From: a virus | Virus record (IMG/VR): IMGVR_UViG_3300047557_001236 | Coordinates: 1 to 60,069 of that record | Length of the DNA stretch: 60,069 bases | Reading direction: 5' to 3' (one strand) | Shown: piece by piece, positions 1-60,069 of the stretch | Layout of the letters: every line of letters begins with the position of its first letter | Position numbering within the stretch: the first letter of the stretch is position 1 | The notes under the pieces: generated by a model | What the model was told of the DNA's origin: nothing | Databases searched by the model: none | The model's input: the letters and a program-made list of their open reading frames with translations, nothing else | Translations under genes and position numbers: made by a program

Positions 1-44
1 ATTTAAGAAGAACCCTTGCAGAGTTAGAAAGAGCGGCTAAGTGA
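1..44 (+). CDS. 3' end of an unidentified gene upstream of the DNA polymerase (partial)
   Basis: Only the last 13 codons of an open frame are present. They end in a plausible charged, helical C-terminus (LAELERAAK) and a TGA at 42-44. The stop overlaps the GTG start of the polymerase gene (GTGA at 41-44), the same stop/start coupling used throughout this operon, which supports it as the real upstream gene. Function cannot be judged. Confidence 0.55.
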   Translation, partial: LRRTLAELERAAK

Positions 45-1879
45 ACACGCTTACCATCGACTTCGAAACCTATTACGCTACGGACTTCTCGTTGACTAAG
101 TTAACGACAGAGGAATACATCCGTGACGATCGGTTTGAAGTTGTCGGAGTTGCGATCAAAGAAAACGACTCACCCACCAAGTGGTTTAGTGGAACGCACA
201 AAGAAATACAGCATTGGCTAACACAGTTTGACTGGGACAACAGTTTTGCATTAGCCCACAATGCTATGTTTGATGCCGCCATTTTGAATTGGATATTTGG
301 GATAAAACCAAAAGCTTGGTTCGATACTTTATCTATGGCTCGTGCAACAGATGGTTTAGAAGCGGGTAATAGTCTTGCAAAACTTGCCGTGAGATACGGA
401 CTAGGGGTTAAAGGCACAGAAGTTGTTGATGCCAAGGGTAAACGACGGGTGGACTTTAATCCGATTGGATTACTCAAGTATGGCGAATACTGCAAAAATG
501 ATGTCAATATTACTTATGACCTCTTTAACCTACTACTGCCACGGTTTAGCCTTCACGAATTAAAGTTAATTGATTTGACGCTACGGATGTTTTATGACCC
601 GTTGCTGTTTCTAAATACTCCCCTTCTTGAGCAACATTTGATGCAAGTTAAAGCTCGTAAAGATAAATTACTTGCTGCTTGCGTAGCAAATAAAGACACT
701 CTTATGTCTAATATAAAACTAGGGGAACTACTAATATCTATGGGGGTTGAGCCACCCATGAAAATATCCCCTGCTACGGGAAAGGAAACGTATGCCTTTG
801 CCAAAAATGATGAAGGATTTAAAGCACTCGCTGAACACCCTGATGAACGAGTTCAGGCTATCGTTGCCGCTAGACTGGGTACTAAATCCACCCTTGAAGA
901 AACAAGAACGGATCGTTTTATATCTATTTCTAAGCGGGGGCGCATGCCTGTACCTCTTAGGTATTATGCTGCTCATACTGGTCGTTGGGGTGGTGATGAC
1001 AAACTAAACCTTCAAAACCTTCCAAGAAAATCATTACTCAAAGAAGCAATTGTTGCGCCGCAAGGACATGTGTTGATTGATGCCGACTCTAGCCAAATTG
1101 AAGCTAGAATCGTAGCATGGTTATCAGGTCAGAACGACCTAGTCAAAGCCTTTGAGGAAAAAGAAGATGTATACAAAATTATGGCGTCCTCCATATATAA
1201 CAAGACGCAAAAAGAAATCACGCCTGAAGAGCGGTTCGTGGGTAAGACAACAATCCTCGGTGCGGGTTATGGCATGGGCTCTACCAAGTTTGCATTACAA
1301 CTCAAAACTTTTGGGGTGGAAATCGACGATGCGGAGGCGGCTCGGATTATACAAGTCTACCGAGACACATACCCTCGGATCCCTAAACTTTGGAAAGAAG
1401 CTAATAGTGCCCTTAACGCCCTTATTGAAAAAAAGGCTGCGCCTGTTGGGTGTCAAACCCAAGCACTATGCCTTACGGAATCAGGTTTTTTATTGCCAAG
1501 TGGGCTCTACTTAAATTACAGAGACTTACAGCCTGCAGAGGATGGGTTTACTTATTATTCAAGAAATGGTCGCATAAAAATTTATGGTGGTAAAGTCGTT
1601 GAAAACTTGTGTCAAGCACTAGCCCGTTGTATTATTGGTGAACAAATGCTACGCATTTCAAAGCGGTATCGTGTAGCATTAACGGTGCATGATGCCGTAA
1701 TGGCAGTAGTGCCTAAAGAACAAGTAAAAGACGGTTTGTTGTATATCAATGAGTGTATGCGTTGGCGACCCTCCTGGGCTACCACTTTACCTCTTGCTTG
1801 TGAATTAGGTATCGGCAGAAGTTATGGCGATTGCAGTAACAAGCAAAGTATTGAAGAGTGGAATGTTAATGGAGAATGA
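41..1879 (+). CDS. polA: Family A DNA polymerase with 3'-5' exonuclease domain
   Basis: This is the replicative DNA polymerase, 612 residues, acting in the cytoplasm on phage DNA. The N-terminal proofreading domain shows Exo I (DFET, D7/E9), Exo II (AHNAMFD near residue 78) and Exo III (YCKND). The polymerase domain has motif A (DADSSQIEAR, catalytic D349), motif B on the O helix (K402 to Y410-G411) and motif C (VHDAV, catalytic D551). Two positions are unusual. The residue equivalent to E. coli Pol I Phe762 is Leu406, and the Glu normally following the motif C Asp is Ala552. The start is GTG, preceded by an A/G-rich site (GAAAGAG) and overlapping the previous stop. There is no 5'-nuclease domain, as in T7-type polymerases. 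The family assignment is secure. Confidence 0.96.
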   Translation: MNTLTIDFETYYATDFSLTKLTTEEYIRDDRFEVVGVAIKENDSPTKWFSGTHKEIQHWLTQFDWDNSFALAHNAMFDAAILNWIFGIKPKAWFDTLSMARATDGLEAGNSLAKLAVRYGLGVKGTEVVDAKGKRRVDFNPIGLLKYGEYCKNDVNITYDLFNLLLPRFSLHELKLIDLTLRMFYDPLLFLNTPLLEQHLMQVKARKDKLLAACVANKDTLMSNIKLGELLISMGVEPPMKISPATGKETYAFAKNDEGFKALAEHPDERVQAIVAARLGTKSTLEETRTDRFISISKRGRMPVPLRYYAAHTGRWGGDDKLNLQNLPRKSLLKEAIVAPQGHVLIDADSSQIEARIVAWLSGQNDLVKAFEEKEDVYKIMASSIYNKTQKEITPEERFVGKTTILGAGYGMGSTKFALQLKTFGVEIDDAEAARIIQVYRDTYPRIPKLWKEANSALNALIEKKAAPVGCQTQALCLTESGFLLPSGLYLNYRDLQPAEDGFTYYSRNGRIKIYGGKVVENLCQALARCIIGEQMLRISKRYRVALTVHDAVMAVVPKEQVKDGLLYINECMRWRPSWATTLPLACELGIGRSYGDCSNKQSIEEWNVNGE

Positions 1880-4832: not shown

Positions 4833-5002
4833 ACGCATACGAATTAGCAGATTATTTAGAAAAAGATTTTCAAATTCAAGAAGCAGTAATTGATATGTTA
4901 TGCCAACAAGCAGACCTTATAAAACAAGCGTCTCAATTTATTCAAGAACAAGGATTGGAAAGACAATGGATTATTTGGTCACAGAAAGCAAGTGAGAAAT
5001 GA
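4829..5002 (+). CDS. Small acidic hypothetical protein
   Basis: A 57-residue helical protein (MNAYELADYLEKDFQIQEAV) ending QKASEK. The ATG has GGGAGAAG upstream and overlaps the previous stop; the TGA overlaps the next ATG. Its first part resembles the NAxELAD helix of small phage proteins that often precede envelope or metabolic genes. No catalytic motif is visible. Confidence 0.65.
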   Translation: MNAYELADYLEKDFQIQEAVIDMLCQQADLIKQASQFIQEQGLERQWIIWSQKASEK

Positions 5003-11222: not shown

Positions 11223-11231
11223 CGTCTACGG

Positions 11232-11293
11232 GGGCAGCTAGCTCGACGGAGCGAACTGGGATATTGCCGAATCCCTTGCTGCCCTTATTTTTT
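11232..11293 (+). ncRNA. Three-way-junction RNA ending in a U-tract (terminator-like)
   Basis: A 7-bp closing stem, GGGCAGC (11232-11238) with GCTGCCC (11278-11284), encloses two hairpins: GCTC-gacg-GAGC (11241-11252) and GGGAT/ATCCC (11258-11262 with 11271-11275, 8-nt loop). A U-rich tract (TTATTTTTT, 11285-11293) follows directly. Everything lies between the stop of the HTH gene and the primase start. The U-tract suggests an intrinsic terminator or attenuator; the junction is more elaborate than a normal terminator. The 7-bp stem, a two-base TA and a 4-bp stem recall a tRNA acceptor/D-arm, but there is no anticodon arm. Confidence 0.6.
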
Positions 11294-11308
11294 CGGTGTT
11301 GAGGAACT

Positions 11309-14137
11309 ATGGCAACAACAGATTTGTTATCAGCAGTATTAGCACCCGAGGGGGAGGGATGGTACTGCATAGTAGGACTACGACAAGACGGCTCAAAACC
11401 ACCTAAACAATCTTTTCATCAGACCTTAGCTGAAATAGATACAAAAGTTAGCGAGTTGGTGGATGATAAGTACGATGTGTATTTTGCATGCTCTAAGTTT
11501 ATAGATCCACAAAATGGCAGGATCCAACCCAACGCAAACATAATCAAAGCATTTTGGCTTGACGTTGATTGTGGTGAGGGTAAACCCTATGCAAATCAAA
11601 TTGATGGTTTATATGCCCTCAAAGCATTTTGCAAAAAGATTAAGATGCCGTTACCGACTGTGGTTAATTCCGGTCGAGGCGTGCATGCTTACTGGAGATT
11701 AACTTCTGTAATAGACCGAGCACAATGGAAGCCCGTAGCCGAGCGCATTAAAGCTCTGTGCGAAGAACATGAGTTTGCGGCTGACCCATCACGGACCGCA
11801 GATAACGCATCTATTTTACGTGTACCAGAAACTTTTAATTTCAAGGACGAGCCGCCGTTACATGTAACAATTTTGGGTATCCAACCTGAAGTTGATTACG
11901 AGCTTATTAAGCAAACCATCGGCGTATTAGTTGCACCTGACTGGGTGCCTAGGCAATATAGCGAGTCGGCTTTATCACTTTTAGGTAATAAGCAAAGCAG
12001 GTTTAAGACCATCATCATGAAGACCATGAATGGTCAGGGCTGCGCTCAAATAGAAAATATTGCAGTAAATCAAGATACTATTGAAGAACCATTATGGAGA
12101 GCAGGGCTGTCAATAGCGGCAGTCTGCGTAGACCGAGATGAAGCTATTCACAAAATTTCAGAGGGGCACCCCGAATATACGCCAGAGAACACTGAACGCA
12201 AGGCTAATAAGACAAATGGCCCTTACACTTGCCAGACATTCGAAAAGCTCAACCCTAGCGGATGCGAAGGATGTCAGCACAAGGGAAAGATCTCATCGCC
12301 CGTGCAACTTGGATCGGAGATTGCAGCTGCGGAAGATAATATCATTGTCGAAAAAACAGAGACTGGTCAAGAAGAGACTTTTGAAATACCACCGTATCCG
12401 TATCCGTATTTTAGAGGTAAAAATGGCGGCGTCTACATCGAAATAAAAGAAGACGAAGATACGGTTGATGCTAGAAATATATACGAGCACGACCTATATA
12501 TAGTTAAGCGCTTACACGACCCAGCCAAAGGCGAGTCAATTTGGTTAAGGTTGCATTTACCAAGAGACGGAGTCAAAGAATTTGCAATGCCGACATCGGA
12601 TGTAATGACGATTGAGCGGCTACGGGAAAGGCTTGGCTTTCATGGCGTTATAGCGCCCAAGAAACAGATGGATGCAATTATGAGTTATGTAATTGCGTCG
12701 GCTAAAAACTTACAACATTCCATGGAGTTAGAAGTTATGCGTAATCAATTTGGTTGGACTGACAAAGATAAAAAATTCATTATAGGAGAACAAGAGGTGT
12801 CTGCAGAAAAAGTAGCTTATAGTCCCCCATCCGTAGCCACTGGTTCATTGGCCGACCATTTAAAACCTGCTGGTAGTTTTGAAGCTTGGCAAAAAATTAC
12901 TAAAGTTTATGACACACCAGGTTTTGAGCCGCATGCGTTTGGCTTTTTTACTGCTTTTGGCGCTCCGCTACTTAAGCACCTCAAACTTAAAGGTGCCATC
13001 ATTAACTTGGTAAACAATACTTCCGGTACAGGTAAGTCAACTATCCTTAAGATGTGCAATAGCGTCTGGGGGCATCCTGAAGAACTAATGCTTCAATGGA
13101 AAGACACCATGAACTCTATGATTCACCGTCTTGGGGTTATGAATAATTTACCCGTGACTATTGACGAAGTTACCAAAATGAGCGGCGATCACTTTTCAGA
13201 CCTGCTTTATGCTGCATCGCAAGGTAGGGGCAAGAACCGCATGAAACAGCATGAGAACGTCGAACGTGCAAATGCCACCAAGTGGGGCACCATTGTATTG
13301 ACCAGCTCAAATGCATCGTTTTATGACAAGCTAGCTACCCTTAAAGCTACTCCTGATGGCGAGTTTATGCGTCTGTTGGAGTACAAAATTGAACTAACCG
13401 GTAATTTATCTAAGCAAGAAGCCGAAGAGATATTTAATGCGCTATATGACAACTATGGACACGCAGGCGTTAAGTATGCCCAATACTTAGTAAGTGACTT
13501 AGAAGGCGCTATGGACCTCGTAATGCAGGTTCAGCAGCGTTTAGATAAGGCAGTTGACATGAGCAACCGTGAGCGATTCTGGTCAGCTGTGGCGGCTTGC
13601 AACATAGCTGGTGCTTTAATTGCTAAAGATTTAGGGATTATTGACTTTGACATTCTTAGGGTTTACGAGTGGATTGTTAAAGAACTCAAAGTCATGCGGC
13701 ATGAAATTAAGGCGCCTACCGTTGGCACTATAGATGCAATTAGTGAGTTTATTAACGAACACCGTGGCTCTGTATTAGTTATCAATGACGAGGTCGACAA
13801 CCGTACGGGTATGGAGCAACTGCCAATTGTAGAACCAAGATTAGACAAGTTATACATCCGTATCGAGCCTGATACTAAAGAGATGTACATTAACGCTAAG
13901 CAATTCAGAAAGTATTGCACCGACAATCAGATTACTTTAAAAGACGTCCTTGCCGCATTGCAGGCAGATAAGGCATACCTAGGTATTAAGAAAAAACGCA
14001 TCTCCAAGGGTACTAAGATTAAGTCTGGAGCTATAGATTGCTTTGCTTTTGACCTGTCGGCTAAGTGTTTTGAAGAGGAGCACTTGATTGATATAACGGC
14101 TGAAGATGCTGATACACGGGCTCAACTTTCAAGTTAA
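11309..14137 (+). CDS. Primase-polymerase/helicase fusion (AEP-like primase with DUF927-type ATPase)
   Basis: A 942-residue replication protein. The N-terminal 220 residues look like an archaeo-eukaryotic-type primase: catalytic acidic pair in FWLDVDCGEG, the SGRGVHAYWRL motif and DPSRTADNASILRVP. A short Cys cluster (GCEGCQHKG, with an upstream YTCQTF) near residues 310-330 may bind zinc. The C-terminal half is a ring-type ATPase like DUF927 proteins: Walker A NNTSGTGKSTI (about residue 570), Walker B NLPVTIDEV, then a sensor strand TIVLTSSNAS. It would unwind DNA and prime synthesis for the polymerase at the start of the window. GAGGA precedes the ATG. Confidence 0.87.
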   Translation: MATTDLLSAVLAPEGEGWYCIVGLRQDGSKPPKQSFHQTLAEIDTKVSELVDDKYDVYFACSKFIDPQNGRIQPNANIIKAFWLDVDCGEGKPYANQIDGLYALKAFCKKIKMPLPTVVNSGRGVHAYWRLTSVIDRAQWKPVAERIKALCEEHEFAADPSRTADNASILRVPETFNFKDEPPLHVTILGIQPEVDYELIKQTIGVLVAPDWVPRQYSESALSLLGNKQSRFKTIIMKTMNGQGCAQIENIAVNQDTIEEPLWRAGLSIAAVCVDRDEAIHKISEGHPEYTPENTERKANKTNGPYTCQTFEKLNPSGCEGCQHKGKISSPVQLGSEIAAAEDNIIVEKTETGQEETFEIPPYPYPYFRGKNGGVYIEIKEDEDTVDARNIYEHDLYIVKRLHDPAKGESIWLRLHLPRDGVKEFAMPTSDVMTIERLRERLGFHGVIAPKKQMDAIMSYVIASAKNLQHSMELEVMRNQFGWTDKDKKFIIGEQEVSAEKVAYSPPSVATGSLADHLKPAGSFEAWQKITKVYDTPGFEPHAFGFFTAFGAPLLKHLKLKGAIINLVNNTSGTGKSTILKMCNSVWGHPEELMLQWKDTMNSMIHRLGVMNNLPVTIDEVTKMSGDHFSDLLYAASQGRGKNRMKQHENVERANATKWGTIVLTSSNASFYDKLATLKATPDGEFMRLLEYKIELTGNLSKQEAEEIFNALYDNYGHAGVKYAQYLVSDLEGAMDLVMQVQQRLDKAVDMSNRERFWSAVAACNIAGALIAKDLGIIDFDILRVYEWIVKELKVMRHEIKAPTVGTIDAISEFINEHRGSVLVINDEVDNRTGMEQLPIVEPRLDKLYIRIEPDTKEMYINAKQFRKYCTDNQITLKDVLAALQADKAYLGIKKKRISKGTKIKSGAIDCFAFDLSAKCFEEEHLIDITAEDADTRAQLSS

Positions 14138-56187: not shown

Positions 56188-56273
56188 TGCGGTTTGAGGG
56201 TTGCCGATTCAGCCCTCGCTTTGCACAATTCAAGGTCGTATCTTGGTTTGTGCGTTTTTATGGAGATGTAATC

Positions 56274-57005
56274 ATGCCAAATAAGGCAAATACTAAAGTA
56301 GTAAACCCTTTTGAGGGTGTAGTGAATCAGGTTGTAAATCCCGATGGTTCTGTCGTTCCTGTGCAGTATGTGGCTAATCCTGCTGAGGTCTATAACTTAT
56401 CGGCTGAGGAGTTTGCCGATTTGACGGATTTAGCAGAGGATTGGTTCAATGGTTGCGACCTACTCGGCAAAGGTAAAACCTTGCGTTCTGATACCGCCAA
56501 GGCTATCAAGAAAATGCTTGGTGAGTTGCCTGAGTTTGCCAAGTATCACGCCTACCGCCAAGCATTTATCAATCAAATGCTTAGTTCGGGCAAAACCAAG
56601 AACGATACCTCGGCTGGTCAGATGTGGAACGAGTTGATCGATTTGGTGCGTGATATATGCAAACCCTTTGCTATACCCAAATCACCCAAGGCTAATGCTC
56701 AGCGTATGCAGTCAAAGCGAGATCAGGAACGCAAGGCGTTGGAATCGCTTAGTGATGATGAGTTGCTGTCGGCTTTGGCTAATTACACTGATAGCAAACA
56801 GTTCACCAAGTGCAATATGGTGCAGACTGTATTGACTCAGCGTGAAAAACTTAGGGTTAAAAATGACCCCAAGTTAATCAAGGCTCAAGAGGAATTGAAA
56901 GCCAAGCGGGATTCGATTATTGCAGATGTTCGCAAAATTAAATCTATGGATCACCTAGCCAAGATCCAATCATACATGGCTCAGTATGTTCCTAAAGTTG
57001 TCTAA
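56274..57005 (+). CDS. Early protein of unknown function (243 aa)
   Basis: The start is ATG 56274, with GGAGATG seven bases upstream; the longer open frame begins inside the previous gene. It reads MPNKANTKVVNPFEGVVNQV, PDGSVVPVQYVANPAEVYNL, then helices (SAEEFADLTDLAEDWFNGCD, LGKGKTLRSDTAKAIKKMLG) and a long basic C-terminal helix (LIKAQEELKAKRDSIIADVR). No catalytic motif stands out. A DNA- or RNA-binding role is possible from the Lys-rich helices. Two strong terminators follow it, so it ends a separate transcript. Confidence 0.65.
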   Translation: MPNKANTKVVNPFEGVVNQVVNPDGSVVPVQYVANPAEVYNLSAEEFADLTDLAEDWFNGCDLLGKGKTLRSDTAKAIKKMLGELPEFAKYHAYRQAFINQMLSSGKTKNDTSAGQMWNELIDLVRDICKPFAIPKSPKANAQRMQSKRDQERKALESLSDDELLSALANYTDSKQFTKCNMVQTVLTQREKLRVKNDPKLIKAQEELKAKRDSIIADVRKIKSMDHLAKIQSYMAQYVPKVV

Positions 57006-57021
57006 TTAGTCAGTTTTACCA

Positions 57022-57045
57022 AGCCCTCGAAAGAGGGCTTTTTTT
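57022..57045 (+). terminator. Intrinsic terminator 1
   Basis: AGCCCTC (57022-57028), loop GAAA, GAGGGCT (57033-57039), followed by a T7 run. It lies 17 bases after the stop of the upstream gene. A GNRA-like loop and a long T-run make it a strong terminator. Confidence 0.9.
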
Positions 57046-57046
57046 C

Positions 57047-57073
57047 GCCTAGCATTTTTGCTAGGCTTTTTTT
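57047..57073 (+). terminator. Intrinsic terminator 2, tandem with the first
   Basis: GCCTAGCA (57047-57054), loop TTTT, TGCTAGGC (57059-57066), then T7. It begins one base after the first terminator's T-run. Two back-to-back terminators insulate the non-coding hub downstream from upstream transcription. Confidence 0.88.
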
Positions 57074-57091
57074 ATTTCTTCACCCTCTTTA

Positions 57092-57198
57092 GTTCCCTAT
57101 CTCAATAGGGAACGGTCATTGTAGCAACGCAATAGCCCTTTCTGACTTCGGGCTTTTTGACTTATGCTGGAGTCCAGCATAACAAAATTTATTTTGTT
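57092..57198. promoter_or_regulatory. Cluster of perfect dyads (operator or origin elements)
   Basis: Several inverted repeats occur close together. GTTCCCTAT-ctca-ATAGGGAAC (57092-57113) is 9 bp per arm. AGCCC...GGGCT with T5 (57134-57158) looks like a third, weaker terminator. ATGCTGGA-g-TCCAGCAT (57164-57180) has 8-bp arms, and AACAAAAT-tt-ATTTTGTT (57181-57198) follows directly, also with 8-bp arms. Short central spacers in the last two fit dimeric protein-binding sites better than hairpins. They precede the repeat array. Confidence 0.65.
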
Positions 57199-57210
57199 TG
57201 TCAAGCGTGC

Positions 57211-57542
57211 ATTGTTCTAAAAAACCCCCCTATTGTTCTGTATTGTTCTATGCCCTTGGAACATTCCTAACCCCTTGATTTAACTAAGTTTTATTGCGTT
57301 TTTTGGGGTATTGTTCTATTGTTCTGTCAAACTACAAACGCCAACTTTTTTTAGCCCTTCGAGAGACCCCCTTCGCATAGTGCAGAGGTGTTCCAAAGAA
57401 AAATTTGCCCCCCTTAATATAATCTAATAGAACAATAGAACAATATACTAAAACTAACCGCAAAGCCAATACCAGCATGGTTTTCTATTGTTCTATCGCA
57501 CATAGAACATTATCGAACATTACGAACAATACACAGAACATT
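57211..57542. repeat. Array of about twelve ATTGTTCT(A/G) iteron-like repeats
   Basis: Forward copies of ATTGTTCTA or ATTGTTCTG start at 57211, 57232, 57242, 57310, 57318 and 57487. Inverted copies (TAGAACAAT) start at 57428 and 57436. Degenerate inverted copies (GAACATT or GAACAAT cores) start at 57503, 57513, 57522 and 57534, and a GGAACATTC lies at 57258. Two forward and two inverted copies overlap as doublets, forming a 17-nt inverted repeat pair (57309-57325 and 57429-57445). The region has no gene and is AT-rich, as expected of an origin or multi-site operator. Confidence 0.78.
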
Positions 57543-57601
57543 CAACCCACAAAGCCCATGCCTACACACGCACACACAAGTAAAATAAATCCTACAAACT
57601 C

Positions 57602-57630
57602 TTGACAAAGTAAGGTATTTGTGGTATACT
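57602..57630 (+). promoter_or_regulatory. Near-consensus sigma70 promoter for the right-end early operon
   Basis: TTGACA (57602-57607, 6 of 6), a 17-bp spacer and TATACT (57625-57630, 5 of 6). It follows the repeat array and precedes the next ATG by 96 bases, leaving an approximately 90-nt leader. The downstream gene has AAGGAGATG as binding site. This is the strongest promoter seen in the window, and repeats directly upstream could control it. Confidence 0.85.
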
Positions 57631-57725
57631 TAAAGAATGGGATATCGTCTAAATTTTTTGCAACCAAACCCAACCCGCACATTTCAAGTTCCCATCTTGA
57701 TTTGTGCAACACAAGGAGATGTTAT

Positions 57726-57992
57726 ATGTATCAAGCAAAGTTTCAAACCAACACCGCATACGATACGCACATACTATGCACCGTATGTCATTTCCCCAAA
57801 GTCACCCAAGGTCGCTACGACCACCTCAAAAGCATCAAACAACGCATTACTTGTCATGCCTGCGGTGAGAAGATTGCCGAGCAAGAATCCCGCAAAAAGC
57901 AAAGCCGAGTATTACCCATCAACAAAAGCACCCCGACTTACATCAGCGACCCTGAGATGCTCAAGCAACTAAACCCAAAGAGGACGACATGA
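57726..57992 (+). CDS. Small zinc-finger early protein
   Basis: An 88-residue protein starting MYQAKFQTNTAYDTHILCTV, with two Cys pairs, ILCTVCHFP and ITCHACGEK, spaced as a zinc ribbon or treble clef. A basic linker (RYDHLKSIKQR) and a Lys-rich tail (EQESRKKQSR) point to nucleic-acid binding. First gene behind the strong 57,602 promoter. AAGGAGATG lies upstream of the ATG. A transcription or replication regulator is plausible. Confidence 0.75.
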   Translation: MYQAKFQTNTAYDTHILCTVCHFPKVTQGRYDHLKSIKQRITCHACGEKIAEQESRKKQSRVLPINKSTPTYISDPEMLKQLNPKRTT

Positions 57993-59344: not shown

Positions 59345-59863
59345 ATGAATCAAGAAGCAAATGCAGTATTAGAAAAAGCGAAGTCTAACTTATCATCACC
59401 TGACTTCAAAACCATGTCCATCATGGAATCCACCAAGTGGTGTGTAGAGCGTGGTTATGACAAGCCTGCGGACATCTCAAGTATCACAGGCAAAAAAGCG
59501 GGGGTTATCAGCACCGCCTTGTGGAAGATCCGCAACCCCAAGAGGGTCAAGGTTCTAGCCCGTCGTGCCGCTAAGAAAAAAGCGGCGGCTAAGAAAGGTA
59601 GCCCTGCCGTTATGAAGACCAAGAAACCCAAGGTCAAGAACGGCTACTACGAAGATGGTATGGAGACCCCATTCCTTGATGCTTTGAACCGCAGAGGTGT
59701 TTTCCCTGAGTTTGTAAAACCAAAGAGTTTGGAACTAGCAACGGAGTGGCTTGGTGAAACCAAAACCACCACGATTCACAACGAACTCATTGCAGAAAAC
59801 CGCAGGCTCAAGGTTTTGGTCGAGCACTACGAGTCCTTACTTTTTGGTAAGGGAGGCAAGTGA
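59345..59863 (+). CDS. Early DNA-binding-like protein with Lys/Ala-rich linker
   Basis: A 172-residue protein starting MNQEANAVLEKAKSNLSSPD at ATG 59345 (AAGGAG upstream). Residues 20-70 contain a helix-turn-helix-like segment (YDKPADISSITGKKAGVIST, ALWKIRNPKRVKVLARRAAK), where IxxxTGKKxGVISTALWKI resembles a recognition helix. A histone-like Lys/Ala linker follows (KKKAAAKKGSPAVMKTKKPK), then a C-terminal helix pair with a Leu-rich coil (ELIAENRRLKVLVEHYESLL). A regulator or origin-binding role is possible. Confidence 0.68.
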   Translation: MNQEANAVLEKAKSNLSSPDFKTMSIMESTKWCVERGYDKPADISSITGKKAGVISTALWKIRNPKRVKVLARRAAKKKAAAKKGSPAVMKTKKPKVKNGYYEDGMETPFLDALNRRGVFPEFVKPKSLELATEWLGETKTTTIHNELIAENRRLKVLVEHYESLLFGKGGK

Positions 59864-60069
59864 TGTATAGATCCTCGATGTATAACTCAGCAAGATTGCC
59901 GAGTATCGCCAATTACGACATGGCTAAGAGGATCTACCAAGAGGCTCGACCCATTCGTGGGCGATACCCCGAGGAGAGACCGCTTGGTAAGAACCGCAGA
60001 TACTCATGGATGCAAATTCATGAACGGGTAAGAAGCATAGAGTCTGAAGGTAATCCCGTAGGCGAGTAT
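59863..60069 (+). CDS. Start of a small phage protein cut by the window end (partial)
   Basis: Sixty-nine codons are open to the last base. ATG 59863 overlaps the preceding TGA. The sequence MYRSSMYNSARLPSIANYDM, AKRIYQEARPIRGRYPEERP and LGKNRRYSWMQIHERVRSIE has the NYxxAKRxY...PIRGR.PE.RPLG.RR pattern of a phage family of unknown function that normally continues past this point. So the window ends inside a gene. Confidence 0.72.
   Translation, partial: MYRSSMYNSARLPSIANYDMAKRIYQEARPIRGRYPEERPLGKNRRYSWMQIHERVRSIESEGNPVGEY

Follow-up and report, generated by a model that had tools for sequence, protein, structure and literature searches.

The locus examined here raises the question of what a gene-free stretch crowded with repeats and transcription signals does in the genome of an uncultured phage. 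We analysed a single virus record of 60,069 bases (the window), in which the gene-free interval extends from the end of a rightward gene at 57,005 to a zinc-finger gene at 57,727. The longest stop-free run within it covers 60 codons and its conservation is of the type seen in blocks of noncoding DNA, in keeping with the first-pass annotation, which had found no gene in 57,006–57,725 and had proposed a replication origin or a master switch. The interval holds two terminators, a palindrome, a leftward promoter, a repeat array, a rightward promoter and a leader hairpin. Leftward of the array the gene order is terminase, portal and structural genes, and rightward it is early genes followed by replication genes, so that the array itself stands between the leftward terminase genes and the rightward early genes. 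The window breaks off at its right end within a gene whose continuation is found in L040, a near-identical contig, so that several kb of early genes are probably missing between base 60,069 and base 1 of the record. The early genes of L040 (among them those for a MoxR-like ATPase and a DUF2201 protein) are apparently absent from the window. With the missing early genes allowed for, a circular map probably has the replication genes at 1–14 kb following the array on its downstream side.

The rightward gene at 56,274–57,005 is closed by two tandem intrinsic terminators (57,021–57,066, plus strand), whose stem-loops at 57,021–57,040 and 57,047–57,066 are each followed by a T run, as the earlier reading had it; similar tandem terminators are found in L008 and L042. 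The promoter previously described as near-consensus is a rightward early sigma-70 promoter (TTGACA-17-TATACT with an extended −10, TG; 57,602–57,630, plus strand) that scores 11/12. A leftward sigma-70-like promoter (TTGACA-17-TATGCT, 10/12; 57,176–57,204, minus strand) is matched in about one-third of the relatives under a strict pattern. The inverted repeats reported earlier in the interval are also present, among them a palindrome with 10-bp arms (TTATGCTGGA-G-TCCAGCATAA, 57,162–57,182) that spans the −10 of the leftward promoter. The sequence of this palindrome varies among the relatives and its palindromy is kept in most of those aligned; it is possibly an operator or a hairpin.

The 5′ UTR of the zinc-finger gene contains a leader hairpin (GCACATTTCAAG...CTTGATTTGTGC, 57,677–57,707, plus strand) that belongs to a repeated family. 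Near-palindromic hairpins of this kind lie ∼ 5–25 nt upstream of the Shine–Dalgarno sequence and start codon of many early genes, at 56,223, 57,677 and 59,289 (plus strand) in the window, at 4,880–12,326 in L040 and throughout the early region of L041, L045, L049, L055, L082 and L213. Their position and structure are constant and their letters are entirely unlike between groups (GCACAnnTCAAG-N-CTTGnnTTGTGC in the group of the window and GACAAAGTGTCA-N-TGACACTWWGTC, with ∼ 10 copies in 13 kb, in that of L041). These hairpins, which may act as signals for translation or for the processing of transcripts, recall the start-associated sequences of cluster K mycobacteriophages.

Analysis of the repeats showed that they are not equally dense elsewhere in the window: 14 TGTTC/GAACA cores fall in 57,200–57,545 (all of them within 57,211–57,540), where 0.6 would be expected, and the densest other 346-bp stretch has at most four. 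The sequence ATTGTTCT occurs 11 times across the window (whole-window expectation 3.2), with eight of the copies inside 57,211–57,494. The first-pass count of about twelve repeats in 330 bp was fair, although the unit is better written as TAWTGTTCY, as derived from 362 sites in related loci, and occurs in both orientations. The tandem spacing of the units is 8–13 bp, 8 bp being the commonest. The repeats are laid out as two inverted arms ∼ 110 bp apart, an arrangement absent from the first-pass annotation. The left tandem arm is ATTGTTCTATTGTTCT (57,310–57,325, plus strand); the right tandem arm (ATAGAACAATAGAACAATA, 57,427–57,445, minus strand) is inverted with respect to it, and the tandem pairs at 57,310–57,325 (plus) and 57,429–57,444 (minus) are mirror images. 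Outside the arms are a left outer group of iterons (57,211–57,263), with cores at 57,213(+), 57,234(+), 57,244(+) and 57,259(−), and a right outer group (57,487–57,540), with cores at 57,489(+), 57,505(−), 57,515(−), 57,524(−) and 57,536(−).

The array is found at the same place in relatives of the neighbouring proteins, and its conservation, on which the earlier proposal had been made to depend, extends to dozens of relatives. A scan of IMG/VR with the right-arm motif returned 44 stretches, most of them with 8–15 cores per 500 bp and the two-arm plan, which is shared by ∼ 35 of the 44 contigs. Alignments of the relatives showed three elements in common, namely a left block (GGAACGGTCATTGTAGCAACGCAATAGCCC, 57,109–57,138), a central box between the arms (AGACCCCCTTCGCATAGTGCAGAGG, 57,364–57,388) and a right block (ACCGCAAAGCCAATACCAGCATGGTTTT, 57,457–57,484). 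The noncoding blocks are 77–82% identical to those of the relatives, compared with mostly 65–70% for the flanking coding DNA. A short inverted repeat at 57,457–57,484 recurs with changed letters in most relatives, as judged by eye and uncounted. A hairpin reading of the central box was rejected because its pairing breaks down in L049 and L055, and we treat the box as a sequence element.

Outside this set of contigs, a near search of phages with a 10-kb region as the query gave no match, and a search for distant matches to the array among phages and plasmids gave short chance matches or none. Among the matches listed for the right-arm motif in GTDB genome contigs there was no array; these matches were AGAACAAT microsatellites and single chance sites, many of them in Bacteroidota. 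The microsatellite-like tandem repeats of AGAACAAT (e.g. in L094, L101, L119 and L152), many of which are likewise from Bacteroidota, contain the iteron sequence, probably by coincidence. We found no description of this origin in the open-access literature searched, and one may exist elsewhere.

Beside the left arm lies an IHF-type site (57,268–57,280, minus strand), an exact match to WATCAANNNNTTR (AATCAAGGGGTTA); it is a consensus match, in sequences from uncultured phages. The exact IHF consensus is present at 24 of the 30 array loci (a set from which most near-duplicates were removed and in which the window and the near-identical L040 were both kept), as against 1.8 expected from shuffles. 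Because IHF was absent from the search motif, this enrichment was not selected by ascertainment. Relative to the right arm, the consensus is mostly positioned between −133 and −160, its orientation differs between groups, and some of the loci without an exact match have a one-mismatch version at the same place. No DnaA box (TTWTNCACA) was found across the 30 loci; such boxes are common at iteron origins and are not required where the helicase loads itself. The right arm falls within the 45-bp stretch of lowest duplex stability in the window (57,413–57,458, rank 1 of 60,023), a DUE-like element that the first-pass annotation had missed. As the relatives were mostly found by the right-arm motif, their low stability is partly selected; the rank within the window itself is unaffected.

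This combination of a repeat cluster in noncoding DNA, an easily melted AT-rich element and an IHF consensus is that of an iteron origin, and the region is probably a replication origin, lying between divergent promoters and serving a DUF927 helicase encoded in the same genome. Support for the origin half of the earlier proposal comes from features read directly in the DNA: the array and the symmetry of its inverted arms, the IHF consensus, the unwinding-type stability minimum, conservation, and the linkage to the helicase together with the homology of the latter. The GC skew, which had been suggested as a check, does change direction close to the array, but because it appears to follow the gene strand it is uninformative.

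The candidate initiator is a DUF927 primase-helicase (11,309–14,137, plus strand), homologous to SCCmec Cch and SaPI Rep, which we propose as the protein that binds the iterons; the presumed phage replicase is a family A DNA polymerase (41–1,879, plus strand). The helicase matches the PDB entries 5dgk (Cch; E 7e-18) and 8tch (SaPI island protein; E 8e-9) and carries an N-terminal primase-like part. Its C-terminus keeps a basic KKR..KGTK motif and gives a weak match to HTH_56, the HTH domain of Cch (E 0.01, with three of nine members at E ≤ 1). Among the records searched, the helicase is present at 53–84% identity in nine array contigs and polymerase A at 65–84% in ten, and the array records without helicase or polymerase A are all ≤ 36 kb and maybe fragments. 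The reverse test took the helicase as the sole query for retrieving contigs and looked for TAWTGTTCY in 20 of the longer ones. Clear arrays were found in G018, G019 and G021, G024 ends inside one and G025 ends with a partial one; the remaining contigs appear to stop short of the place where the array is expected. The helicase gene lies ∼ 16–23 kb from the array and, in G002, G004, G018 and G019, roughly 16–22 kb downstream of it. Phage Rollin encodes a 34%-identical helicase, yet has no TGTTC array. In the window, the gap that separates a small HTH gene from that of the DUF927 primase-helicase contains an Rfam match to int-alpA RNA (RF02996, E 1.3e-4; 11,231–11,298), which might be a regulatory element for the proposed initiator.

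We infer that initiation at this site would proceed as follows. The C-terminal domain of the helicase would bind the TAWTGTTCY iterons in the two inverted arms, ∼ 110–130 bp apart, and IHF or a similar host protein would occupy its site and bend the DNA next to the left arm. Melting would follow at the right arm, which is AT-rich and unstable, and two helicase rings would load in opposite orientations, so that forks served by DNA polymerase A of the phage depart in both directions. The divergent promoters at both edges would start early transcription and may aid opening.

The same arrangement could be a multi-site operator, in which a phage regulator sits on the repeats and controls the divergent promoters, IHF shapes a repression or activation loop, and replication starts elsewhere. 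Such an operator would account for the place of the array between two divergent promoters, for the first iteron abutting the −35 of the leftward promoter, whose −10 lies within the palindrome, and for the HTH-type genes nearby (59,345 and 10,995). However, the iterons of the relatives are clear of the rightward promoter, stopping 14–116 bp upstream of its −35 with the exception of one extra far-end site in L076, and an operator needs neither a stability minimum nor paired inverted arms. We therefore regard the operator as unlikely to be the primary function of the array. The master-switch half of the first-pass proposal may survive as a side role, given the divergent promoters that flank the array, although the position of the iterons outside the rightward promoter in relatives speaks against it.

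The choice of binding protein bears on the same question. The first-pass annotation had nominated the product of the HTH-like gene at 59,345 and that of the zinc-finger gene. Members of the 59,345–59,863 family (L055, L059, L063 and L069) have swapped N-terminal domains, HTH- or winged-helix-like, and keep a coiled-coil-like C-terminal end. The N-terminal domain is an HTH in L072 and winged-helix-like in L069, and the right arms of these two loci are nearly identical; since the DNA-binding domain is exchanged and the arms stay unchanged, the iterons are unlikely to be bound by the 59,345 product. This also counts against an operator read by this regulator. The structural model of this product is weak (pLDDT 72) and its HTH-like matches are non-significant. 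The zinc-finger product is likewise a poor candidate, being variable among the relatives and unrecognised in the array-bearing G008. On these comparisons, the DUF927 helicase, ∼ 20 kb away on the circular map, is a better candidate than either. The family-1 proteins (56,274 and its paralogues) were also tried as iteron binders and rejected, because their identity between phages whose arms are nearly the same is only ∼ 25%. This family, although modelled well (pLDDT 86), had no significant PDB, Pfam or PHROG match. The all-helical family of 56,274–57,005 and its paralogues flanks the array at ∼ 30 loci, some phages having one copy per side.

A further possibility is a packaging site of the pac or cosB type, with the small subunit of the terminase binding the repeats together with IHF, as terminase small subunits and IHF do at the repeats of lambda cosB and P1 pac. 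The repeats and the IHF site head the terminase operon, ∼ 1.9 kb from the small-subunit gene, and five contigs (L051, L058, L077, G024 and G025) end in the array, as a genome terminus might cause. These ends, all of which lie inside the array or ≤ 200 bp from it, perhaps exceed chance placement; they may be assembly breaks on DNA common to co-occurring relatives, or a physical end. Many long contigs (the window, G002–G004, G018 and G019), in contrast, cross the array and have differing end points, which argues against a fixed end, and packaging has no need of a melting element.

Moreover, the repeats are not inherited with the terminase. G008 carries the array with a large terminase of phrog_2, not phrog_38, and has only early genes in common with the lineage (those for the MoxR-like ATPase, the DUF2201 protein and one or two more), one short weak match being its sole further similarity; the helicase was not found in the 32.8 kb of G008, which may be a fragment. 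In 023Pt_psg01, DSL-LC04 and HTVC027P, the named phages with the closest terminases (55–58% identical to that of the window), the primase and helicase are different, there is no match to the DUF927 helicase and the TGTTC array is absent; the largest cluster of cores among them, in 023Pt_psg01, has seven in 400 bp and falls within an annotated gene. The presence of the array in G008 with another terminase and its absence from these named phages indicate that the site travels with the early and replication module, and we consider a packaging site highly improbable.

Least probable of all, to the point that we give it almost no weight, is a role in partition, as a centromere, or in regulation, as a structured RNA. 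Tandem repeats and hairpins are indeed present, and there are weak Rfam matches at 57,010–57,075; these fall under the gathering scores and are due to the two terminators, and pairing between the arms is lost in L007, where the letters of one side alone change. Short of a systematic search, no gene for partition came to notice.

With the region read as an origin for the DUF927 helicase, its closest known counterpart is the origin of SaPI with its self-loading initiator helicase Rep. Both combine short iterons with an initiator helicase of DUF927 or related type, the phage helicase being a detectable homologue, and the SaPI initiator has a C-terminal DNA-binding domain. SaPI Rep binds its iteron origin via this domain, apparently as two hexamers (PMC7581432). 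SaPI origins, however, lie directly downstream of rep, whereas here the helicase gene is ∼ 20 kb from the array. Further differences from SaPI are the N-terminal primase-like part joined to the helicase, the iteron sequence (TAWTGTTCY), the presence of an IHF site and divergent promoters within the locus, and the carrier, which is a complete phage instead of a satellite. The array would thus work like a SaPI origin, and we do not class it as one because the origin is not next to rep.

Among the SCCmec proteins, Cch is the best structural-database match of the phage helicase (5dgk, noted above), and to our knowledge no origin has been established for Cch itself. Cch contains DUF927, and Cch2 binds a set of three direct repeats that lie downstream of the gene encoding it (PMC7581432); Cch2 is from another helicase family, and the origin of these SCCmec modules is putatively of the iteron type. 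Further parallels exist among other replicons with iterons. At ori and crr of the satellite phage P4, the alpha initiator, a fused primase and helicase, binds short iterons that also contain GAACA; P4 differs from the array described here in having two separate cis sites and a helicase of a different family. R6K gamma and pSC101 resemble the array in their iterons, IHF and AT-rich opening region, but their Rep proteins recruit the host helicase and they usually have DnaA boxes, of which there are none here.

More tentatively, and as a possibility that we hold to be short of probable, this could be a lineage-wide type of origin, in which inverted arms around an IHF-bent spacer load paired primase-helicases of the Cch/SaPI-Rep kind from a distant gene, and in which the divergent promoters and the covarying palindrome would make a combined replication and transcription switch within 450 bp. 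Known origins are scarce among uncultured phages, and the array would define one concretely, at the level of sequence, for a group that comprises dozens of metagenomic contigs. It would also tie an origin to the DUF927/Cch/SaPI Rep helicase family, which is known mainly from satellites and resistance cassettes. The motif TAWTGTTCY, in inverted arms ∼ 110–130 bp apart with an adjoining IHF site, may serve as a simple motif in testing self-loading initiator helicases outside the staphylococci.
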